The notes beneath the pieces are model-generated. The model was not told the DNA's origin. It saw only the letters and a program-made list of their open reading frames with translations, and searched no databases. Shown here piece by piece: positions 33,176-64,000 of a DNA stretch of 64,000 nucleotides; within the stretch, counting starts at the first letter, position 1, and every line of letters begins with the position of its first letter. Both the position numbers and the translations under genes were made by a program. The stretch covers positions 1,469,488-1,533,487 of the forward strand of contig NZ_CP070608.1 in NCBI RefSeq assembly GCF_017068455.1. The letters are read 5' to 3'. The DNA is from Fulvivirga lutea. Its GTDB lineage: Bacteria; Bacteroidota; Bacteroidia; Cytophagales; Cyclobacteriaceae.

Positions 33176-36100
33176 ATGGAGGCAAATAAAATTAACAAGA
33201 TGGCTCACGTAAATAAAATTAAAAAAGACATGATCAAATCAGCTTTAACTACCCTTTTTTTGCTACTTCTGAATTGGCAAATATTTGCTCAATTGCCAAT
33301 ACAACTCACGGCCACTAACCCTTCTAATAATGCCACTGCGGTGACAAACACCGCCAACATAAGCGTCACGTTTGATAAAGAGGTAAACCCCACCACGCTC
33401 ACTACAGGCGGTGTGGTTATCCACGGAGGCAATGGCCCTGTTTTGGATTTCCCTATGCCCACCGTGTCAGGTTCTACAGCTACCTTTGACCCAGTCAGGA
33501 ATTTCTTTCCGGGTGAGGTAGTCTCCATCTCATTTACTTCAGGCGTAACCGCTACCGATGGCGGGATTTTGGAAACTCCTTTTGTATCCCGGTTTACTAC
33601 AGCGGTAAGCCCAGCGAGCCCTGGCGTCTTCGCCAATGGGCAAAATAGGATTAATTCCGATGCAGGTAACCAAGGTGGTACCAGAAGTGTCCATGCCGCG
33701 GACTTGGATGGTGATGGTGACTTGGATGTGCTTTCTGCATCTCAAAATAATGGACTCATTGCGTGGTATGAAAACGATGGGTCAGGCAGTTTCGGTACAA
33801 CGCAGACCATTACTACCGCAGTGTTTGGTGCTATAAGTGTCTATGCCGCGGATTTGGATGGAGATGGTGACTTGGATGTGCTGTCAGCTGCTGAAGGAGG
33901 TGGCTTCATTGCATGGCATGAAAATGATGGATCAGGCACTTTTGGAGCAATGCAGACCATTACTAACGGAGCACCTACTGCCTCAAGTGTCTATGCCGCG
34001 GACCTGGATGGTGATGGGGACCTGGATGTGCTGTCTGCTTCAGAAGCAAATGGTATTGCATGGTATGAAAACGATGGGTCAGGCAGTTTTGGGGCACTAC
34101 AGACCATTACTACCGAGGCAAGTGGTGCCAAAAGTGTCTATGCCGCAGATCTGGATGGTGACGGGGACCTGGACGTGCTGTCTGCTTCTCAATTCGATAA
34201 CCGCATCGCATGGTGCGAAAATGATGGGTCAGGTAGTTTCGGGCCACTACAGACTATTACTACCGGGGCAAGTGCTGCTTGGAGTGTCTATGCTGCAGAC
34301 CTGGACGGGGACGGGGATTTGGACGTACTGTCTGCTTCTCTAGTTGACGATCGCATCGCATGGTACGAAAACGATGGTTCAGGCAGTTTCGGTTCACAGC
34401 AAACCATTACTACAAGTGCGAATGATGCCTTCAGTGTCTATGCCGCGGATCTGGATGGTGACGGAGACCTGGACGTGCTTTCAGCTTCTCAAGCTGATGC
34501 CCGCATCGCATGGTACGAAAACGATGGTTCAGGCAGTTTCGGGTCACAGCAGACCATTACTACGAGCGCAAATGGTGCCATCAGTGTCTATGCCGCGGAT
34601 CTCGATGGAGACGGAGATCTGGACGTGCTTTCTGCTTCTGAATTTGATAACCAAATCGCGTGGTATGAGAATGCGCTTCCAATTTCTATCACCTGCCCAG
34701 CAAATCAAAATGTGAATTTTAATGCCAATTGTGAATTTGTCATTCCTGATTTTAGCGAGTTAGTCAGTGTAGAAAATAATGTATCTCCTACACCAACCCT
34801 TGTTCAATCACCTATAGCAGGTACAGTCATTACAACCAGTCAAACAGTTACATTTACGGTAACTGATAGTAATGGTAATACAGATCAATGCACCTTTGAA
34901 TTAATCCCGGCAGACAATACCGAACCGGTGATTTCTGCAGTAGCGGATCAAAATGTGAACTGCCAGTTTGTACTGATTGATTATACTGGATTGGCCACCG
35001 CTACAGATAATTGTACCGCTACTCCGGTCATTACGCAAAGCCCGGTAGTTGGTACGGTGATCAATACTACCCAAACGGTGACTTTAACCGCTACTGATGA
35101 TGCAGGTAATACCGCTACTACCACCTTTGAGGTCATCCCTTCTGATACTAACGATCCGGTGATTTCTGCAGTAGCGGATCAAAATGTAGATTTTGATACA
35201 AACTGCCAGTTCGCACTGATTGATTATACCGGATTGGCCACCGCCACAGATAATTGTACCGCAACGCCAGTCATTACGCAAAGCCCGGTAGTTGGTACAG
35301 TGATCACCACTACCCAAACAGTGACCTTGACCGCCACTGATGATTCAGGCAACACAGCTACAACCACGTTTGAGGTCATCCCTGCTGATACTAGCGAACC
35401 GATCATTTCTGCAGTAGCGGATCAAAATGTAGAATTTGATGCAAACTGCCAGTTCACACTGCTTGATTATACTGGATTGGCCACAGTTACTGATAATTGC
35501 ACCAACACCCTGGTTATTACGCAAAGCCCTGCGGTAGGCACGGAGATTACTTCAAGTCAAACAGTTACATTGATGGCCACTGACGATGCAGGCAATACAG
35601 CCACTATCACCTTTGAGGTTATCATTGTCGATACTACCGATCCGGTTATTTCTACCGTAGCAGACCAAAATGTAGAATTTGATGCAAACTGCCAGTTTAC
35701 ACTGCTTGATTATACCGGATTGGCCACCGCTACTGATTTTTGTAACACTACTCCGATCATAACACAAAGCCCGGCAGTTGGTACGGTGATCACTACTACT
35801 CAAATGGTGACATTAACGGCTACTGATGATGCAGGTAATACCGCGACTACCACCTTTGAGGTCATCCCTACGGACGATACGCCACCTTCAGTGATTGCTA
35901 GGGACATCACCATACAATTGGATGTGAATGGACAGGCATCTATTGCAACGAGTGATATTGATAACGGCAGTACGGATAACTGTTCTTTATCTCTGGCCCT
36001 GGATCAAACCAACTTTACTTGTGCAGATATTGGCACTAATATAGTTACCTTAACGGCTACTGATGGAAGTGGGAATTCGAGCTTCGCTACCGCTACGGTT

Positions 36101-36643
36101 ACGGTGGAGGACAACATTGCCCCCACAGTTATCACTCGGAACATCACCCTACCTCTAGATGAAAGCGGTCAAGCTTCCATTATACCTGAAGATATCGACA
36201 ATGGAAGTACGGACAATTGTGGCATAGCCAGCTTGGAATTGGACATTACTACATTTAACATTCCTACAACATCATCCACAGTAACACTTACCGTAACCGA
36301 TGTAAACGGCAACAGCTCTTCAGGAACAGCTATAGTCTCTTTCGAAATGTTTGGCACTGACCTGTTCTTACCCACTTTATTTACTCCAAATGGAGATTCG
36401 AATAATGACTTTTTTATCGTAAGAGGCGGAGGTAACGTGGCAAGCATTCAAATGAAAATATTTGATAGGGAAAATAATCTTGTATACAGTTCTGAAAGTT
36501 TAACAGAGCTCTTTCAGACAGGTTGGGACGGAGGGGGCCAACCGCAGGGCGCTTATCTGTGGGGCATCAGCGGTAGTTTTACTGATGGGTCGCCACTATT
36601 AGTAAACGGAAAAAATACCGGCATCATAAGACTCCTTAGATAA
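33176..36643 (+). CDS. T9SS-secreted FG-GAP/HYR repeat protein with type B sorting domain
   Basis: A 1155-residue surface or extracellular protein. In order: a signal peptide (hydrophobic segment then IFAQ, about residue 38; ATGs at 33200 or 33230 could also start it); a Big_5/SbsA-like Ig domain (about 42-145); seven FG-GAP/VCBS-like units (about 170-500) each with AADLDGDGDLDVLSA and W.ENDGSGSFG; five HYR-like Ig units (about 502-905; DQNV, NCQF, DYTGLATATD, VTLTATDDAGNT); two divergent units with DNGSTDNC; and a gliding-motility-associated C-terminal domain (about 1061-1155; FLPTLFTPNGDSNNDFF), the type B T9SS signal. FG-GAP loops bind Ca2+. A PorP/SprF gene follows 31 bases downstream. 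Confidence 0.92.
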   Translation: MEANKINKMAHVNKIKKDMIKSALTTLFLLLLNWQIFAQLPIQLTATNPSNNATAVTNTANISVTFDKEVNPTTLTTGGVVIHGGNGPVLDFPMPTVSGSTATFDPVRNFFPGEVVSISFTSGVTATDGGILETPFVSRFTTAVSPASPGVFANGQNRINSDAGNQGGTRSVHAADLDGDGDLDVLSASQNNGLIAWYENDGSGSFGTTQTITTAVFGAISVYAADLDGDGDLDVLSAAEGGGFIAWHENDGSGTFGAMQTITNGAPTASSVYAADLDGDGDLDVLSASEANGIAWYENDGSGSFGALQTITTEASGAKSVYAADLDGDGDLDVLSASQFDNRIAWCENDGSGSFGPLQTITTGASAAWSVYAADLDGDGDLDVLSASLVDDRIAWYENDGSGSFGSQQTITTSANDAFSVYAADLDGDGDLDVLSASQADARIAWYENDGSGSFGSQQTITTSANGAISVYAADLDGDGDLDVLSASEFDNQIAWYENALPISITCPANQNVNFNANCEFVIPDFSELVSVENNVSPTPTLVQSPIAGTVITTSQTVTFTVTDSNGNTDQCTFELIPADNTEPVISAVADQNVNCQFVLIDYTGLATATDNCTATPVITQSPVVGTVINTTQTVTLTATDDAGNTATTTFEVIPSDTNDPVISAVADQNVDFDTNCQFALIDYTGLATATDNCTATPVITQSPVVGTVITTTQTVTLTATDDSGNTATTTFEVIPADTSEPIISAVADQNVEFDANCQFTLLDYTGLATVTDNCTNTLVITQSPAVGTEITSSQTVTLMATDDAGNTATITFEVIIVDTTDPVISTVADQNVEFDANCQFTLLDYTGLATATDFCNTTPIITQSPAVGTVITTTQMVTLTATDDAGNTATTTFEVIPTDDTPPSVIARDITIQLDVNGQASIATSDIDNGSTDNCSLSLALDQTNFTCADIGTNIVTLTATDGSGNSSFATATVTVEDNIAPTVITRNITLPLDESGQASIIPEDIDNGSTDNCGIASLELDITTFNIPTTSSTVTLTVTDVNGNSSSGTAIVSFEMFGTDLFLPTLFTPNGDSNNDFFIVRGGGNVASIQMKIFDRENNLVYSSESLTELFQTGWDGGGQPQGAYLWGISGSFTDGSPLLVNGKNTGIIRLLR
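33685..34680 (+). repeat. Seven tandem ~150-bp coding repeats
   Basis: Units of about 147-150 bp each encode SVYAADLDGDGDLDVLSA and ending IAWYENDGSGSFG plus a variable QTIT linker. The DNA itself is strongly conserved between units (for example the GATGGTGATGGTGACTTGGA type core), with mostly third-position changes. Unit 4 has CENDG in place of YENDG. Recombination between units could change copy number. Confidence 0.85.
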
Positions 36644-53775: not shown

Positions 53776-56700
53776 TTATTCCTTCGACAAATCTATAACT
53801 GTCTTAAAATTCGTACTGTCTATCTCTTCAACTGTGATCCACTGACCGTATTCATCTAACTTTTGAAGTTTGTATTTACTAACCCCACCATGCCATCCCT
53901 GATATGGCGTCCAATTTAATTTGTTTACGTAATTGTCAGTTGTTTTTTGAAGTAAAATAGAATTACTTTCACCGCTAAGTGTAGTTTCAATATCGCATTC
54001 GTTGATTACCCGTATCTGATAAGTAAAACTTTCGGATTGTACATCTACCTCTTCATCATAATAGCTGGTAATACCTTTGGGCACATAATCTATTAGTTCA
54101 AATTCATTTCCATTTTTTCGTAGAATATCATAACCAACAACTTTGTCAGAAGCTATAGTTGGTTCATTCCATTCGGTTAATATACTTTGATCATCCACAA
54201 CTGTAGTCCTAACGATATTCACATGTTGCTGCTCAAACATGTTTTTTTCGACTGTAATGCTGGAGAAATTACTTTCTGAATAATATTGACTTCCATTCAA
54301 ATTCAATGCCCGTACACAATAATAATATTCACCTGGGCAGAGAGCCTCATTCTCTTTATAACTATTTTGATCTTTTGAAATGACTTCCACGGGCTCCCAA
54401 TCGCCTCCTTCTGGTCTTCTCGATACTAAATAGTTTTCAAAATCATGCCCTTCGTAGTGGTTCCAAGTGAGTTGAATTGAATCCCGGATAAGTTCCGATT
54501 TAACATAAATTGTTTTGTACTGAATTAAGTCCTCTAATGGTGCAGGCTCATAACAATACCCTTGAGATTGAATTTTATAGTGATACGGATTTTCATTTAG
54601 TTTAACATTTAAATCCCGATATAAATCATTAGATGTAGACCATAATGTATCATATGGAAGGTAGTCGGGTTCAAATGTGCATTTCTTATACAATACATGA
54701 TACTTTAAATTATTCAATTTGTATTCATCATAATTTATATCTATTTCCTGATTGTCGATAACTGATATTCGGTAGATATCAGGTTGTTTTCTAAAAGTAG
54801 TGTCGTACACGGTAATTTTTTCTGAGAGCTCAAAGCTATCTGTACAGAATCCTTCGTTTGAGACCTCCATCTTTATTTGATATACACCGGGCTTCGTGTA
54901 AGTATGTTCGGGGTTCTCTAAAGTTGATGTTTCATCATCACCAAATAACCATTTAAATGTGGGGTTCTGTAAGTTGCTGGACTTGTTGGTAATATCTATG
55001 GAAACTGGTAAGCACTGGTTATATGTATCAACCTCAAACGATGCTTTAGGTGTAGGTATAACAACAACTGAATCAAATTTGGTAAATTGATTACAGCCAT
55101 TGTCATCATATGAAACTAATGATATGTCATAAACCCCAGGTAATTCATATTCATGGCTAGGACTTTTTAACGAGGAAGAATTACCATCACCAAAGAGCCA
55201 TTCCCATCGTACTGCAACAGTCGATGTATCGTTAAAAGTAATTTGATCTGGATGACAAACAATAGAGTCTGAAAGTACAATCTTAGAATTCGGTCCTTTT
55301 GAGCTGATTGCATCTTTAACTATTAATGTATCTGAACAACCGATATCATCACTGGCAATAATGGTAACGTCAAATTGCCCTATGTCTGAATAAACATGGA
55401 TTGGATCAACACTGGAAGAGAAGGCCCCATCCCCAAAATCCCAATGATACTGTGTGGCATTCTTTGAATTATTAGTGAAGTCAATTAAGAGAGGAGCACA
55501 TTTTGAGTCAGTCTCACCAATTTCAAACTCAGCTTCTACGTAATTAACCTTTATATAGCTCGTTTTTACTACTTTGTCATTGCAACCATCTATACTTGTT
55601 GCGATGAGTGTAATGTCGTACAGGCCTGGTTCAGAAAATGTATGAACTGGATTAATGAGGTCCGAAGTTGTTCCATCACCAAAGTCCCAGATATAGCTTT
55701 TTGCACCCTTAGACTGATTATTAAATACCAATTCTTGACCCTTACAAATTTCGGTGTTTGAAACTGCAAAATCTACTGTAAGGAAGGAGTTTATTTGTTT
55801 TTTGACTGTAATAGAACATCCACTATCTGATATTGCTGTAAGTTGAACAGGTTTATCAGGTACAGAATTGAATATGTGGCTTGGATTTTCTTCAGTTGAA
55901 ATTGTTCCATCCCCAAAGTCCCACTGCCAACTGACTGCATTTTTACTATTATTGATAAAATCTACCTTAGCAGGAAGACAGGTTTGTTCTTGGCTGTAAG
56001 AGAAGTCAGCGCTGATAGAATCAACTACGATCAGATTTTTTCGACTTAGTGTATTGCTACAAGAATTGTTTGTAGCAATCAGTTCAACATCGTACGTACC
56101 AGAATTATACTGATGGCTTACATTTACTTTTGATGAAGTACTAGAATCTCCAAATAGCCAAAGAAAGCTTGAAGCATCTGTAGAATTGTTTGTGAATGTA
56201 ACGTTCAATGAATTACACCCATCAGTTTTATTCACAATAAAATCAGCCTTTGGCGTATTATATGTTACTTCCTCTGGCAAAGTAATGTTCTGAGAGCAAC
56301 CATCTAACCCATGAGCTTTTACTTGAATTTGATAGGTCCCTGCATTTTTGTAAGCATGAACTGGCAGGTCTTCGGTGCTTACTTCACCATCACCAAAATC
56401 CCATACCAAAGTCTCAAACCCTTTAATATTATGGTTGATAATTAAGGAGTCATTCTCACATAAATTGGTTGGATAATCGAAAATCACATAGTCATTTCCA
56501 ACGATCACATTTTTAAGAACTTTTGAAGTACAGCCTGAGGCATCTTCTACTTTTAATGAAACTTGATACACTCCCTGTTCTTTGTAGGTATGTGTTGGAT
56601 TTGAATCTAGGCTCAATTGTCCATCACCAAAATCCCATGTTGTTGATTTATAATTGTCGATGTCTTGATTGAATGTGACCGTATAGCCAGAGCAATTAAA

Positions 56701-59028
56701 TTCTTCTAAATAACTAAAATTAGCGTTTGGTTTTTCGATGATCACTTCTGAGTAAACATCTAGTGTATCAATATTCCCATTATCATAGTAAGAGATTAAA
56801 CCAACATAATAATGACCGTCATTTGTATAGATATGTGAAGGAAATTTTTCGGTTGAATTAGTACCGTCACCAAAATCCCACAGCCATGATTCTGCCTGCC
56901 ATCTTGGGTTTGTAAAATTCACTTCAGCCGGGCTTCCACATAATTTAATGATATGTTTATATACAAATGTTGTGTCTGCGAATTGATTATCACCTTCTTC
57001 ATCATCCAATGAGCAATACGGCCAAGGAGAACTAATTAATTGAGACGTAGTATTAGAACAGCCGTTTTCATTTGTTACTGTTAGCTGTACGTTAGTTTGT
57101 CCATTGGTAGAGAAATCAATTATCGGATTTTGATCCGTGCTGGTAGTGCCATTCTCAAAATCCCAGAAGTAAGAGGCTCCGGTTTTTTTCTCAGTATTAA
57201 ACTGAATGGTAAAATTGGGACATCCGGCTGTAGTATCAACTAAATTAGAAGTTATTTTGGCTTCTACTTTATCAACCTCAATTTGATTATAGTTGTCAAT
57301 GTAGCTCTCACAGCCATGAATGTTATTAGTTCTTAAAGTAACTGTGTAGGTTCCAATTTTCTCATATGAATGTACTGGGTGAGGTTCGTTTGATTTTACA
57401 CCATCACCAAAATCCCACTCCCAAAAATCTTTGCCAACATCACCATTAAAGAAAACCTCCGTTGACTGACAGGTAGTTACTTGTTCAGGGGTGTCGTATT
57501 CAATTTCGTTAGGAAATACCCTGATCATATTTTTTAAGTTAAGTTGCTGATCACATCCAAACTTGTTTATAAAATGCACACTTACAGGATATTCTCCAGG
57601 ATTATCAAATGTTAAAACAGGATTGATTTCTGTACTTGTAATACCTCCAATTTCCCAAAATGGATTAGTTACTTTCTGGTCTTCCAGGGTGAATTCAATT
57701 TCTACAGGACTGCAACCACTGATTGATGATGCTATGATTTTGTTCTTAGCAGAGTAAATATTAAAAATGGAGTCATATTCTACAGTTTTAGTGCAACCTG
57801 AACTATACGTTAATATGGCTTTAAGGGAATATTTTCCAGGATCATTTAATTCAAAATCAGTAGAAGGCCCAACTAATTTTTTGCCATTAATAACCCATTC
57901 GGATGATAACACTCCAGGTGTATTATTCACTAAATGACCTACAAACGGAATACAGCCCTCTGTTATGCCTAAATCAATATCTGGTTGAGAAATATTTTTT
58001 ACATCAATAGAATTCTCTGGAATAATAGTGTTAGTACAGCCTTCTTTACTCGTTACTTGAACTGTATAAGTATAAATACCAGCATCTGTAAAATCTTTTG
58101 AGAATTGTTTTTTATCCGTTGTAAAGCCATCACTAAATTGCCACAATACAGCATCAGTAGTTTTAAAGTTTCCTGAGAAATCAATGACACTTCCTTCGCA
58201 AATAATGGAATCAGATTGAGCAATTATAGGATTGGGTAAGTCGTAAATGTGTATGAATTTGTCAAAAGATTTCTTGGCTGAACATCCATTTTCAGAAGTT
58301 ACTTCAACGGAAATATCGTAAGCCCCTGTTTGAGTATAGGTATGTACAGGGTTCGAAAGGTTTGAAGTGCCACCATCCCCAAAATCCCATGCGTAGGAGT
58401 CATAATCCACTGAAGTATCAAAACTTACAGTAGGGGAACTAATACATGAATTACGATCATCAGCAGCTATTAGAATTTCCTCAACACCAATAACCTCAAC
58501 AAGGTTAGTTTTGGTGAGTACCTTAGAACACTCTTCTTCATTATAGGCAATTAGTGACACTGTGTATTTACCACTTTTAGTATAAGTGTGTTGAGGATTC
58601 TTTTCAACTGAGGTTTTTCCATCACCAAAATCCCAAACATATCGTACCGCATCTGTAGTGGTATTAAAAAAATCTATTGGCGAATTAATACATACGGAAG
58701 TGGCTGCTGTACTGAATTTAACTTCTGGGTATGCAATGGCCTTTATTATTTTTGGTAGTGTTAATTGACTTGATGATCCATCTGATTTATTCACTGTCAA
58801 TTTAACTTCATAACTGCCCAAGGCCTCATAAGATATTGACGGAGATGCTACAGTAGAGGTTTTGCCATTCCCAAAATCCCATAAATACGAAGTGGCACTT
58901 CCTCCTGTATAAGAAAAACTTACACTAAATGGGATGCATCCTGTATATTTTGAGGCAGAAATAGATTCAGATTGTCCAAAAGTTGGCACAAAGCTGATAC
59001 AAATTAATAGCGATAATAAAGCTCTCAT
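53776..59028 (-). CDS. Giant PKD-repeat surface protein without its own T9SS sorting domain
   Basis: A 1750-residue exported protein: signal peptide (MRALLSLLICISFVPTFGQ), about 17 PKD-type Ig domains (about 20-1410; WDFGDG and DFGNG motifs, HTYT ends), then about four fibronectin-III-like domains (about 1415-1750). It ends in KLDEYGQWITVEEIDS and IDLSKE, after the first strands of a last Fn3-like domain. PKD repeat proteins in Bacteroidota are usually T9SS adhesins with a type B C-terminal domain, and this one has none. The missing domain is encoded separately, 13 bases upstream (59042-59470). Several PKD units have an altered motif (WQFSDG, WEIGGI). Confidence 0.92.
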   Translation of the reverse strand: MRALLSLLICISFVPTFGQSESISASKYTGCIPFSVSFSYTGGSATSYLWDFGNGKTSTVASPSISYEALGSYEVKLTVNKSDGSSSQLTLPKIIKAIAYPEVKFSTAATSVCINSPIDFFNTTTDAVRYVWDFGDGKTSVEKNPQHTYTKSGKYTVSLIAYNEEECSKVLTKTNLVEVIGVEEILIAADDRNSCISSPTVSFDTSVDYDSYAWDFGDGGTSNLSNPVHTYTQTGAYDISVEVTSENGCSAKKSFDKFIHIYDLPNPIIAQSDSIICEGSVIDFSGNFKTTDAVLWQFSDGFTTDKKQFSKDFTDAGIYTYTVQVTSKEGCTNTIIPENSIDVKNISQPDIDLGITEGCIPFVGHLVNNTPGVLSSEWVINGKKLVGPSTDFELNDPGKYSLKAILTYSSGCTKTVEYDSIFNIYSAKNKIIASSISGCSPVEIEFTLEDQKVTNPFWEIGGITSTEINPVLTFDNPGEYPVSVHFINKFGCDQQLNLKNMIRVFPNEIEYDTPEQVTTCQSTEVFFNGDVGKDFWEWDFGDGVKSNEPHPVHSYEKIGTYTVTLRTNNIHGCESYIDNYNQIEVDKVEAKITSNLVDTTAGCPNFTIQFNTEKKTGASYFWDFENGTTSTDQNPIIDFSTNGQTNVQLTVTNENGCSNTTSQLISSPWPYCSLDDEEGDNQFADTTFVYKHIIKLCGSPAEVNFTNPRWQAESWLWDFGDGTNSTEKFPSHIYTNDGHYYVGLISYYDNGNIDTLDVYSEVIIEKPNANFSYLEEFNCSGYTVTFNQDIDNYKSTTWDFGDGQLSLDSNPTHTYKEQGVYQVSLKVEDASGCTSKVLKNVIVGNDYVIFDYPTNLCENDSLIINHNIKGFETLVWDFGDGEVSTEDLPVHAYKNAGTYQIQVKAHGLDGCSQNITLPEEVTYNTPKADFIVNKTDGCNSLNVTFTNNSTDASSFLWLFGDSSTSSKVNVSHQYNSGTYDVELIATNNSCSNTLSRKNLIVVDSISADFSYSQEQTCLPAKVDFINNSKNAVSWQWDFGDGTISTEENPSHIFNSVPDKPVQLTAISDSGCSITVKKQINSFLTVDFAVSNTEICKGQELVFNNQSKGAKSYIWDFGDGTTSDLINPVHTFSEPGLYDITLIATSIDGCNDKVVKTSYIKVNYVEAEFEIGETDSKCAPLLIDFTNNSKNATQYHWDFGDGAFSSSVDPIHVYSDIGQFDVTIIASDDIGCSDTLIVKDAISSKGPNSKIVLSDSIVCHPDQITFNDTSTVAVRWEWLFGDGNSSSLKSPSHEYELPGVYDISLVSYDDNGCNQFTKFDSVVVIPTPKASFEVDTYNQCLPVSIDITNKSSNLQNPTFKWLFGDDETSTLENPEHTYTKPGVYQIKMEVSNEGFCTDSFELSEKITVYDTTFRKQPDIYRISVIDNQEIDINYDEYKLNNLKYHVLYKKCTFEPDYLPYDTLWSTSNDLYRDLNVKLNENPYHYKIQSQGYCYEPAPLEDLIQYKTIYVKSELIRDSIQLTWNHYEGHDFENYLVSRRPEGGDWEPVEVISKDQNSYKENEALCPGEYYYCVRALNLNGSQYYSESNFSSITVEKNMFEQQHVNIVRTTVVDDQSILTEWNEPTIASDKVVGYDILRKNGNEFELIDYVPKGITSYYDEEVDVQSESFTYQIRVINECDIETTLSGESNSILLQKTTDNYVNKLNWTPYQGWHGGVSKYKLQKLDEYGQWITVEEIDSTNFKTVIDLSKE

Positions 59029-59041
59029 TATTCTTTGATTT

Positions 59042-59470
59042 TTAATTGATGACCATCACACTTCCGGTCTTATTCACCTGACCAAACTCTTTACCATATG
59101 CCACGAGTTTGTAGGTGTAGCTTCCAAACGGTACAGGCGTTCCATGGTAGGTACCATCCCATTTTGCGCTTGCGCTGTTAGTTTCAAATACTGGTTCTCC
59201 CCACCTGTTATATACTACCAGATTGTATTTCTCAATGCCCTCACCAACAGCACCAAAGGTGTCATTCAAACCGTCATTATTTGGGGTAAAGGCCGATGGC
59301 AAATAAAGCTTCATTGGTAAGAAGAGTTTTACTTCATTAGAAACACTTTCTATGCGTGGATTATCATTGCTTACGGCCACAATTCTATAATTAATAGACT
59401 GATTATCATGTAGTTGCGCAAATACATGAGTACTTAAACATATCAAGATGGTTGTAATTAGAGTTTTCAT
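59042..59470 (-). CDS. Stand-alone gliding-motility-associated C-terminal (type B T9SS) domain protein
   Basis: A 142-residue exported protein with a signal peptide (MKTLITTILICLSTHVFAQ) and only about 30 residues before a type B CTD (about 54-142; LYLPSAFTPNNDGLNDTF, FGSYTYKLVAYGK). The 30 residues (INYRIVAVSNDN, SVSNEVKLFLP) look like the last strands of an Fn3-like domain, and are missing from the C-terminus of the PKD protein encoded just after it. The start is ATG 59470. It lies 35 bases after the PorP/SprF gene. Its stop is 13 bases before the PKD gene, so the three genes form one unit. Confidence 0.9.
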   Translation of the reverse strand: MKTLITTILICLSTHVFAQLHDNQSINYRIVAVSNDNPRIESVSNEVKLFLPMKLYLPSAFTPNNDGLNDTFGAVGEGIEKYNLVVYNRWGEPVFETNSASAKWDGTYHGTPVPFGSYTYKLVAYGKEFGQVNKTGSVMVIN

Positions 59471-59505: not shown

Positions 59506-60480
59506 CTAGAAGAGGTATTTTTGGAATGAAGGACACTTACCTTTGTACTTGTTCTTGACCTTAAATTTTTTTACGACATCAAACTGGTAGCCTATCGATA
59601 TTTCATGCGCATTATCATTGGTAGTTTTATAACCACTAATTGCAAAATCATAACTGTAACCGATTTTGAATTTTGAAATATTGACACCAAGAGAAGTAAT
59701 GATTGCATCATTTAGTCGGTACCACATTCCGGCAGTCCAAATACCATTTCCATAATAGAGCCCAAGATGCAGGTAATCAAATTCGGCCTGTTTTTCATAA
59801 ATCACATTGGGCGAAACATATTGACCATCATTTCTTAATCCTGAAATTGGAAGCATGGCTCCCAAATGAACCGTTGTTTTAATCGGAATAGTAGTTTCAG
59901 AATCAAGTGAAAAGTTCTCCTTAGGCTTGTTTAAATGGCTCAATTTAAGTCCACCATAAATGGTTTCTGATGAATATGATAAACCAACATGAACGTCAGC
60001 CTGGGTAACATTTTCATTTCCAAACCGCTCCTGAGTATTAACTACAACCCCATTTCTTTGATGTAACTGATCCTCAAAGGTCAAAGAGCTCCAGTCTAGT
60101 TTTTTTTGATACGCCCCAACCTGAATACCAAATGCAAGTTTTGAATCTCTGTTGATGTCTATACGATGACCTAAGGTGGCAGCGTAAGAAACAGATTTCA
60201 AAACACCATTCATTTGGCTATCATTAATAATTTGAATACCCCAACCTGAACGCCCACCTAAGGAAGCATCAAATGAGAACATGGAAGTTGAATATTTGTA
60301 GGTATCAGTGCCTTGTTCTCTATGAGCGACCGTAGTTCTTATATTTCCAGCCATTCCAACTAGCGATGGGTTCAAATAGGTAGGGTTCGCATAGAATTGG
60401 GAGAAGTGTGCGTCTTGAGCAGTAGAGTAAGAATAAGAAACAAATCCTAAGATGAAGGTTAATAATATCTGACGTGCCAT
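59506..60480 (-). CDS. PorP/SprF-family type IX secretion protein
   Basis: A 324-residue outer-membrane protein with a signal peptide ending near YSTAQ, then DAHFSQFYANPTYLNPS, the PorP/SprF hallmark, and a barrel ending in the unusual polar tail KVKNKYKGKCPSFQKYLF. It belongs with type B T9SS cargo. It is the first gene of the unit with the stand-alone CTD protein and the PKD protein. It differs from the other copy at 36.7-37.6 kb in its tail, including one Cys near the C-terminus. Confidence 0.92.
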   Translation of the reverse strand: MARQILLTFILGFVSYSYSTAQDAHFSQFYANPTYLNPSLVGMAGNIRTTVAHREQGTDTYKYSTSMFSFDASLGGRSGWGIQIINDSQMNGVLKSVSYAATLGHRIDINRDSKLAFGIQVGAYQKKLDWSSLTFEDQLHQRNGVVVNTQERFGNENVTQADVHVGLSYSSETIYGGLKLSHLNKPKENFSLDSETTIPIKTTVHLGAMLPISGLRNDGQYVSPNVIYEKQAEFDYLHLGLYYGNGIWTAGMWYRLNDAIITSLGVNISKFKIGYSYDFAISGYKTTNDNAHEISIGYQFDVVKKFKVKNKYKGKCPSFQKYLF

Positions 60481-60724: not shown

Positions 60725-61330
60725 CTATAAATGAAACATATTAGGAAGCTGAATCTTTAAATGACTACCAACCTGAAAAGCTGAATCAAAATAAATACTT
60801 CCATTCATTTCTTCGACAAACTGCTTCACCAGGGCTAATCCGATGCCAAATCCTTTAGATTTATGAGATAAGCGAAAATAGCAGGTGAAGATATTGGGAA
60901 TATGCTCTTTCGGAACTCCGATGCCATTATCTATAACATCAATAAATAGTTTTTCTTTTTCAATATTTAACTCTATGTCTAAAAACGAATTGGTCTTTCT
61001 TTGATCATAATAAATGATGCCATTTTCGATAATTTGATTCAAAATAAATTGAAAATAATCTGGGTAAGAGTAGAATGTAAAAGCTCCTTTTACACGTTGT
61101 GAAATACTTATTCGAGAAGTATCAAGATATTTTTTAGCTCTTATTACAGCACGGTTGAGGTGGGCACTAACATCTACTTTTACCATATTTATATTAGGTT
61201 CATACCCGGATAAATGCCCTTTTAGATGTCTTATATAGTTTTCTTCAAACGTGCTTACTGGTTCTTCTAATGAATCAATAGGAAATTTTATTTGATGATT
61301 AAGTAGCCCCATATTTTTCGTTTTAGTCAT
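60725..61330 (-). CDS. HATPase-domain protein without a phosphoacceptor domain
   Basis: A 201-residue protein with a HATPase_c (kinase/Hsp90-like) domain: ILNQIIENGIIYYD (N box), DVIDNGIGVPKEHIPNIF (G1/F box) and SKGFGIGLALVKQFVEEM (G2). The first 95 residues have no HisKA signature. Residues about 45-80 are predicted helical and might dimerise. It is transcribed alone, 95 bases from the NarL-type regulator. It may act on another protein's His, as an anti-sigma kinase-like ATPase would, or be a truncated kinase. Confidence 0.78.
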   Translation of the reverse strand: MTKTKNMGLLNHQIKFPIDSLEEPVSTFEENYIRHLKGHLSGYEPNINMVKVDVSAHLNRAVIRAKKYLDTSRISISQRVKGAFTFYSYPDYFQFILNQIIENGIIYYDQRKTNSFLDIELNIEKEKLFIDVIDNGIGVPKEHIPNIFTCYFRLSHKSKGFGIGLALVKQFVEEMNGSIYFDSAFQVGSHLKIQLPNMFHL

Positions 61331-61425
61331 GAGGTAAATATGAGCATACCAAATGAAATAGAAATTAGGGAATTGCTGATTTTGATTGCAGGGAAATCCT
61401 TATAAAAAGGTACGTATTCTACTTA

Positions 61426-62082
61426 TCAGATCTCAATAATCTTATTCTTTATGGCATATTTTACAAGATCAACCGCATTTTTTAAATCTAACTTTGCCAT
61501 TAAATTTCCCTTATGGGTCTCAACAGTCTTTACACTTATAAACAATTCATCAGCAATTTCATGATTTGATTTTCCTAAGGCTAGTTGTTGAAGTACCTCA
61601 AATTCTCGATTAGTAAGTTCGCTGGATTTAGTGGGTTTTGATTTGGGTTTATTCTTTGCATTGTACATGGCATCCATTACAACTTTAGTGACATCCTTTG
61701 AAAAAAATCGTTCACCATCATGTACTGTTTTTACTGCTTCAACAAGTGTTTTTTTGTCAACATTCTTGGGCAAATACCCATCAACACCAGCTTGAATAGC
61801 CAATTGCACTAACTCTTCAGAGACATCACTTGATATTAGAATGATTTTAATTTCTGAGTTCTGCTCTTTAATCCATTTTGATGCCTCTATTCCGGTCATC
61901 CCATGCATAATAATATCCATGAGCACCACATCAGGGTTTTTGTCATTTGCTTCATTAATAGCTTCTTCACCACTTGTAGCCTTACCAATGATTTTGATGA
62001 ATTCCAGATTACTAAGCATAGCATCTATACCTTCTAAGAGAAGCTTGTGATCATCTACTAAAAGCACTTTAATACTCTTCAT
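61426..62082 (-). CDS. NarL/FixJ-family response regulator
   Basis: A 218-residue regulator with a receiver (phosphoacceptor Asp56 in VVLMDIIMHGMTG; Lys in YLPKNVD) and a LuxR-type helix-turn-helix (about 155-215; LTNREFEVLQQLALGKSNHE, KTVETHKGNLMAKLDLKN). The ATG at 62082 overlaps the TGA of the upstream receiver gene by one base (TGATG); a GTG one codon upstream is possible. It is probably the output of the adjacent kinase operon. Confidence 0.91.
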   Translation of the reverse strand: MKSIKVLLVDDHKLLLEGIDAMLSNLEFIKIIGKATSGEEAINEANDKNPDVVLMDIIMHGMTGIEASKWIKEQNSEIKIILISSDVSEELVQLAIQAGVDGYLPKNVDKKTLVEAVKTVHDGERFFSKDVTKVVMDAMYNAKNKPKSKPTKSSELTNREFEVLQQLALGKSNHEIADELFISVKTVETHKGNLMAKLDLKNAVDLVKYAIKNKIIEI

Positions 62083-62447
62083 CACACATTAATTATTTTA
62101 TGAATTTCGTCCAATAAGTCAGTAGAGGAGCAAGGTTTTGTTATATACCCATCCACATTAAGTGATTTTGCGATTTCCATATTTATTGGATCAGTAAGAG
62201 CTGAGAATATAATTACAGGTATATCCTTCGTTGCGTCCGTTTCTTTTACTTTCTGTAAAAGTTCGAGGCCAGTCATCTCAGGCATAAGTAAATCAGTAAT
62301 TACTAAATCCGGTTTCTCCATCATAATTTTTTCTAAACCCTCCAGTCCGTTTCGAGCTGTAGAAATTTGAAAATTTTCCATTTCAAGTATATCTCGAATA
62401 TTTTCGCGCAAGTCATCGATATCGTCAACAATTAATATTCTTTTCAT
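62082..62447 (-). CDS. CheY-like single-domain response regulator
   Basis: A 121-residue receiver with no output domain: phosphoacceptor Asp52 in LVITDLLMPEMTG, acidic pair Asp8-Asp9 and Lys in YITKPCSS. Its start overlaps the kinase stop (ATGA, 62444-62447) and its stop overlaps the start of the NarL-type regulator. It may carry phosphate to a His-phosphotransfer protein, or adjust the kinase. Single receivers between a kinase and a full regulator often serve as a phosphate sink. Confidence 0.9.
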   Translation of the reverse strand: MKRILIVDDIDDLRENIRDILEMENFQISTARNGLEGLEKIMMEKPDLVITDLLMPEMTGLELLQKVKETDATKDIPVIIFSALTDPINMEIAKSLNVDGYITKPCSSTDLLDEIHKIINV

Positions 62448-64000
62448 TCTTTAAGAGGCAATGTCACCTTGAATTTGGTACCCTTTTCTATTTTACTTTC
62501 TAATTCGATGGTGCCTTTTAAAAGATTCACGGCCTTTTTAATTATAGACAATCCTAACCCGGTACCCTGAATTGATGTAGCATTTTTGCTTCTATAAAAC
62601 TCGTTATAAATATTACCTAATTCATTTTCAGGGATACCAATCCCTTTGTCTTCAACTATAATTATAATTAAGTCATTATTTATCGAAACGTCCAATTTGA
62701 CTACATCTCGTTCAGGGCTAAATTTGATTGCATTGTTGAGTAAATTGTTTATTATGTTTCGAATAAGCTTATTATCTAAATATACCTCTTCTTTTGTTGA
62801 TGAGAATTTAAAATCAACAACATGAGAATTTTTACTTTGATTTTGAACTTCAATAATGAGCTTTTCACAATGTTCTTTTAAATTGAATACACTTTTTTCA
62901 ACTTTAATCTTACCTGCCTTATCCTTACCAATTTCCAGAATATCATCCAGGAGATGCGTCATATGATCAGCTTGCTCTATAATGTTTTCCAACTTCACAT
63001 TAACTTTCTCCCAATCTATTTTAAGGTAATAATTCTTGATATAATCAGCTGCAAACTTGATACTTGACAATGGTGTCCTAAATTCATGAGAAGCCATAGA
63101 AACAAATTTGGTTTGCATGAGAACCAATTCTTTTTCCTTCTCAAGTGCCGCTTTCAAATCCCTGGTGCGTTCTTCAACCCGATATTCAAGATGATTTCGA
63201 TATTCAATTAATTCGGTAATGTCCTGTCCAACACAGATTATCCCCACATCTCCAGTTTCGAAATCTATCCTTGTATTACCACTGAAAAGAAAAATAACTA
63301 TTTCACCTGATTTGGTCTTTAGAGATAATTCACAATTACTTGTAATGCCATCCTCGATGATGAACGAAATGAAATCTCTTACTTTTTCTTGTTCATTGAC
63401 CATTACGAACTTCTCAAAGAGGTTCTTTCCTAAAACCTCTTTTTTGGCATAACCTGTAATATTCTGGGCGAAATCATTCCATTCTGTGATTTTACCATCT
63501 TTATCAATACCAAATATGGGGGCGTTTGCAGTCTTGATTAACTGTACAAGTTCTTGAGCAAGCCTGTTTAATTTCTTTTCACTTTCATAAGAGCTGGTTA
63601 CATCCCTAAATGAAATAACTGCTCCAAGTTTTTCTTCATGGATGCTATAAGGAGCACTATTAAAGATCAACCATTTGTGTTTAGAGCCATTTTTTAGCTT
63701 ATAAATAAAATTAAATTGAGTCTTTTCGTTAATGTCCTCTTTAACTGTAAAAAAGTCGGATCTCTGCAAAGGATTGTTTTCACTATCAAATACTGCAAAA
63801 TTATTGAAAATCAATTTTGAAAAAGTTATTTGGTCCAACTCTTCGATTTTCAAAAAGTGTTTGGCACTCTTGTTTGCATTTAAAATTTTTTCTTCTGAGT
63901 CAACTAAGGCTACTCCTTCAGTCATAGATTCCAGTACACTTTCATATTTGGCCTGATTTTCTTCAAGTAGCTTGTAAGCCTGTATTTGTTCAGTGATATC
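62444..64000 (-). CDS. Multi-PAS histidine kinase, 5'-truncated by window edge
   Basis: A sensor kinase whose N-terminus lies beyond base 64000; the frame is open through the whole last 75 bases. In the window: end of a PAS/PAC domain (DITEQIQAYK), then two or three further PAS domains (MTEGVALVDSEEKIL; PIFGIDKDGKITEWND), a coiled linker (HLEYRVEERTRDLKAALEKE, split here), HisKA with SMASHEFRTPLSSIKF, and HATPase with NLLNNAIKFSP (N box), DKGIGIP (G1) and GTGLGLSIIKKA (G2). No transmembrane helix is seen in this part. The 4-base overlap with the CheY-like gene indicates one operon. Confidence 0.92.
   Translation of the reverse strand, partial: DITEQIQAYKLLEENQAKYESVLESMTEGVALVDSEEKILNANKSAKHFLKIEELDQITFSKLIFNNFAVFDSENNPLQRSDFFTVKEDINEKTQFNFIYKLKNGSKHKWLIFNSAPYSIHEEKLGAVISFRDVTSSYESEKKLNRLAQELVQLIKTANAPIFGIDKDGKITEWNDFAQNITGYAKKEVLGKNLFEKFVMVNEQEKVRDFISFIIEDGITSNCELSLKTKSGEIVIFLFSGNTRIDFETGDVGIICVGQDITELIEYRNHLEYRVEERTRDLKAALEKEKELVLMQTKFVSMASHEFRTPLSSIKFAADYIKNYYLKIDWEKVNVKLENIIEQADHMTHLLDDILEIGKDKAGKIKVEKSVFNLKEHCEKLIIEVQNQSKNSHVVDFKFSSTKEEVYLDNKLIRNIINNLLNNAIKFSPERDVVKLDVSINNDLIIIIVEDKGIGIPENELGNIYNEFYRSKNATSIQGTGLGLSIIKKAVNLLKGTIELESKIEKGTKFKVTLPLKE

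Follow-up and report, generated by a model that had tools for sequence, protein, structure and literature searches.

Cargo proteins of the type IX secretion system (T9SS) are defined by a C-terminal domain (CTD) on the cargo itself. Type B cargos depend on cognate PorP/SprF carriers (PMC12618676), to which they remain attached on the cell surface (PMC9143113). Export requires a CTD, and in T9SS assays, a test protein without one is the nonexported control (PMC10994853). In the closest described systems, SprB/SprF and PG1035/PorP, the CTD is the cargo's own C terminus (PMC12618676, PMC9143113). The locus described here lies in a 64,000-nucleotide stretch of the Fulvivirga lutea genome (the window) and has the same type B CTD families, a neighbouring PorP/SprF gene and a large, repeat-rich, adhesin-like cargo, but its CTD is on a separate polypeptide: a PKD/Fn3 protein of 1750 residues (the giant; positions 53776-59028, minus strand) has no CTD, and a small protein of 142 residues (59042-59470, minus strand) has one. 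The giant thus lacks the mark of a conventional single-chain cargo, a CTD at its own C terminus. We consider it probable (about 0.7) that the two form a two-chain T9SS cargo in which Fn3 strand complementation supplies a type B CTD in trans to the giant. A literature search, which covered open-licence papers and cannot prove absence, found neither a T9SS sorting domain in trans nor piggyback T9SS export, and the two-chain arrangement is apparently an undescribed variant of type B T9SS cargo.

The divided Fn3 domain

According to its open reading frame (ORF) and Pfam/NCBIfam matches, the small protein consists of an apparent signal peptide (residues 1-19), Fn3 strands F and G (residues 28-57; codons at 59300..59389, minus strand; YRIVAVSNDNPRIESVSNEVKLFLPMKLYL) and a type B CTD (residues 57-140; 59051..59302, minus strand). 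The CTD matched PF13585 with 61.9 bits (cutoff, 27) over positions 3-86 of the 86 in the profile, at the very C terminus, and TIGR04131 with 55 bits (cutoff, 35). Of 14 type B CTD matches in the genome, a single contig of 4.14 Mb, the small ORF is the only one at the locus. The original prediction had described a signal peptide, about 30 Fn3-like residues and a complete type B CTD, and indeed, the F-G segment is exactly 30 residues long. The signal peptides of the small protein, the giant and all orthologues were clear, as judged by eye. The only chain of solved structure that matched the small-protein profile was the grappling hook protein GhpA of Aureispira (9flp), in its C-terminal region (E = 2.6e-13); in GhpA, the CTD is within a chain of 5898 residues, whereas here it is on a separate small protein.

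The ORF of the giant begins 13 nt after that of the small protein. It has 15 stretches that match PKD_4, and Pfam/NCBIfam detected no CTD family in it at E ≤ 1e-3. Its last Fn3 domain (53779..53960, minus strand) is incomplete. In an AlphaFold2 model of the last 330 residues (predicted local distance difference test score [pLDDT], 89.3), this final domain stopped after strands A, B, C, C' and E, and the earlier Fn3 domains of the giant continued into F and G. Both analyses agree with the claim that the giant stops midway through its last Fn3 domain without a type B CTD. Also, no CTD remnant follows its stop codon, as had been stated; the DNA before the next gene is too short to encode one.

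Fused homologues have the same Fn3 tail, F-G segment and CTD in one contiguous ORF, and they form a separate clade, whereas here there are two chains. They include a protein of 1742 residues (L250), a paralogue of 630-670 residues that occurs family-wide and the proteins L221-L233. A fused Fn3-CTD paralogue of 654 residues (G000:C1:2284312-2286200) occurs in nearly all genomes of the family. In alignments, the first half of the fused homologues was covered by the giant and the second by the mature small protein, with a gap of 0 and an overlap of 0. In the AlphaFold2 model of L250 (pLDDT, 82.5), strand E ended at residue 103 and strands F and G spanned residues 116-123 and 136-139, and the split site mapped to the E-F loop. 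Fn3 matches in the PDB behaved in the same way. The giant half alone matched 8 chains (E = 1.1e-3), a profile of the halves joined in natural order matched 29 chains (E = 2.5e-20), and the gain was gone in a control in which the F-G part of the small protein was reversed (E = 2.8e-4). The match to 1uey grew from residues 29-79 with the giant half to residues 28-107 with the joined profile, running into the F-G strands of 1uey, and Foldseek found Fn3 neighbours for the models of both the giant tail and fused L250. By homology, the seven-strand A-G sandwich of an Fn3 domain is reached only by the two chains together. Counted from the F-strand tyrosine to the CTD motif, the F-G segment is exactly 30 residues long in 23/23 pairs measured, with R2, S15, S17 and N18 invariant. 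As judged by sequence homology and structure prediction, the small protein carries exactly the two strands, F and G, that are absent from the last Fn3 domain of the giant. The predicted complementarity of the pieces is therefore supported by the fused homologues, by the Fn3 match of the joined halves and by the structure models.

Co-occurrence and descent of the two halves

Five further species of the genus have short standalone ORFs 54-61% identical to the small protein, which lie in a common operon of kinase and regulator genes, PorP, the small gene and the giant. Across the six species, identity is 55-69% among the small proteins and 40-55% among the giants, whose end points differ by only a few residues. 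The pair is present in 6/15 species of the genus and neither half in the other 9/15. Two further genera of the family also have the pair, which in one of them adjoins biotin genes and lacks PorP, and the identical split was found in 13 species from the three genera.

The same 395 genomes were searched class-wide with the giant tail and with the small protein as queries. A split giant was found in 40 genomes, a standalone small protein in these 40 and in one more (G665; 41 in total), and neither in 354; there was no genome of the 395 with a giant but without the small protein (Fisher p ~4e-54, with kinship between genomes ignored). The carriers span 13 families. Three of these (f26, f41 and f54) are mixed, like the genus, and both halves were always present or absent together. 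In the additional genome, in-frame stops break a giant beside an intact small protein (G665:C3:84400-92000; L272), and this giant is either a pseudogene or a sequencing error. Every giant tail read ends at the split. The 41 standalone small proteins were full-length matches at E ≤ 4e-43 in frames of 140-209 residues, separated by a clean gap from the other CTDs, which were weaker and nearly all begin after the signal peptide in longer frames; a phylum-wide search of the 395 genomes added no other small protein at E ≤ 1e-41. The split is thus kept well beyond one genome, and the fused homologues, with which a split confined to this genome would have spoken against the original prediction, stand apart from it.

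The small gene usually lies directly upstream of the giant, the inverted order to which the original prediction had drawn attention. The pair was within ~10 kb on one contig in 20/41 genomes, some assemblies being too fragmented for linkage to be judged. In at least four families (f81, f43, f78 and f76), the two genes are unlinked, and in genome G909 the order is giant, small gene, PorP. Therefore, the inverted order is the common arrangement but not part of the mechanism.

Six genomes (G602, G645, G796, G959, G680 [f43] and G629 [f24]) have two split giants and one standalone small protein each, which suggests that one small protein serves as a shared adaptor for both. It is quite likely that the T9SS sorting domain is here a separate, reusable subunit, with a small adaptor carrying one giant adhesin or, in some genomes, two. 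In lineages outside the family of the window (f44, f27, f81, f43 and f78; L152, L154, L156-L159 and L162-L164), a third small secreted Fn3-like protein without a CTD adjoins the giant (consensus, GKVYLNWV..CIYVIERS.DG.EYEPVG.KEGI..LLYSWVD); it may be another partner.

Both half-domains are under purifying selection. Among four close genomes, the ratio of nonsynonymous to synonymous substitution rates (dN/dS) was 0.00-0.11 for the F-G segment, 0.01-0.08 for the last 60 codons of the giant and 0.15-0.46 for the signal peptide region, with synonymous sites saturated in several comparisons. Moreover, giant-tail identity and small-protein identity were correlated across 23 species (r = 0.84), as joint descent predicts. 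In a tree of 75 tails, made by a quick method and with some long branches, the 40 split tails formed one group (Shimodaira-Hasegawa-like approximate likelihood ratio test, 97) and the 35 fused tails stood apart; no fused orthologue inside the split clade and no re-fusion were found in it. Since the split tails are monophyletic, the simplest history suggested by these sequences is one ancient split of single origin.

Neighbouring genes

The gene just upstream of the small gene (59506-60480, minus strand) encodes a PorP/SprF-family outer membrane carrier (PF11751, 175 bits; TIGR03519, 199 bits). A PorP/SprF gene lies beside the pair in the window, in the six species of the genus and g104, and in G909. 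The C-terminal tail of the carrier (59506-59550, minus strand) reads YKGKCPSFQKYLF, and its one cysteine is kept in the genus and in g104. SprF has a Cys-X-Cys tail that bonds to the GldK gliding track (PMC12635249), and by analogy, the conserved cysteine raises the possibility that the adhesin might be linked to the track. The trio of PorP, small gene and giant is preceded by genes for a hybrid kinase, response regulators and a small kinase (60725..63925, minus strand). Each of the six species of the genus with the pair has such genes ahead of the trio, probably as its dedicated regulators. A second type B CTD protein in the window (33176-36643, plus strand; 1155 residues) is fused and of ordinary layout. 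The genome also has short type A CTD ORFs at other sites (L018 and L028), which did not resemble split partners.

Proposed export in trans and its alternatives

In the mechanism that we propose, the small protein and the giant would each be directed to the periplasm by a signal peptide of its own. The N-terminal F-G strands of the small protein would insert into and complete the last Fn3 domain of the giant, as homology, models and co-evolution suggest, and the giant would thereby bear a type B CTD in trans. From the biology of type B cargos, it is expected that the CTD would be taken up by the PorP/SprF carrier, encoded alongside the pair here, and that the complex would pass through the T9SS translocon and stay attached to the cell surface. 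Completion of an incomplete Ig-like domain by a strand of another chain is known from donor-strand complementation in chaperone-usher pili and Mfa/Fim fimbriae. However, a single strand links repeating subunits there, whereas here two strands would bring a secretion signal; the likeness is one of principle only, and homology is not claimed.

Several observations weigh against this mechanism. Complementation is placed in the periplasm, before export, as an assumption. The invariant residues of the F-G segment are only few, so the pairing may not be specific. In genera other than g1 and g104, the pair usually has no PorP gene beside it (g76 and most others). Finally, in a sliding-window analysis, conservation of the giant's half-domain was above average but not the highest in the protein.

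The main rival of export in trans is that the small protein alone is exported by the T9SS and kept on PorP, and that the giant leaves the cell otherwise and joins it outside by Fn3 complementation. Type B CTD proteins do remain on PorP/SprF at the surface (PMC9143113), and complementarity and co-occurrence fit this explanation equally well, but it requires a further export step for the giant, which has an apparent signal peptide and in which Pfam/NCBIfam found no other export signal; no non-T9SS route is evident, and we regard this explanation as unlikely. That the two proteins act independently, with the small one capping or tuning PorP, a cap role having been proposed for PG1035 (PMC9143113), or serving other cargos, and with the giant periplasmic, is very improbable, as it leaves unexplained the exact complementary split, the co-occurrence in 40/40 genomes and the selection on both half-domains.

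The end-to-end match of the halves to the fused homologues would also be expected if the chains were ligated, or joined at the RNA level, into a full-length protein. We give this little credence: the small gene encodes an apparent signal peptide of its own and frequently is not linked to the giant, and neither an intein nor a ligase or spliced-RNA feature was noticed, though no systematic search was made. Joining of the ORFs by read-through or frameshift was rejected because of the inverted order and the differing frames across the 13-nt gap in the window. The original prediction had offered rearrangement between tandem copies as an alternative. Long-ago duplication and reciprocal loss could indeed yield the inverted order, but as an account of the present state, rearrangement damage or assembly error leaving two incomplete genes is refuted: the split is at the same residue in every relative examined and is conserved in 13 families, the stop site does not vary, co-occurrence is constant and dN/dS is well below 1.

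If export in trans is true, a CTD and its cargo need not share one chain, and the T9SS translocon accepts an assembly of two chains that is folded at least in part. Cargo lists built on CTDs would overlook proteins such as the giant. The folding of cargo before T9SS export would become directly testable, since the small gene or its F-G segment can be altered without touching the cargo, and the pair would provide a natural split-domain tag for the delivery of proteins to the cell surface.
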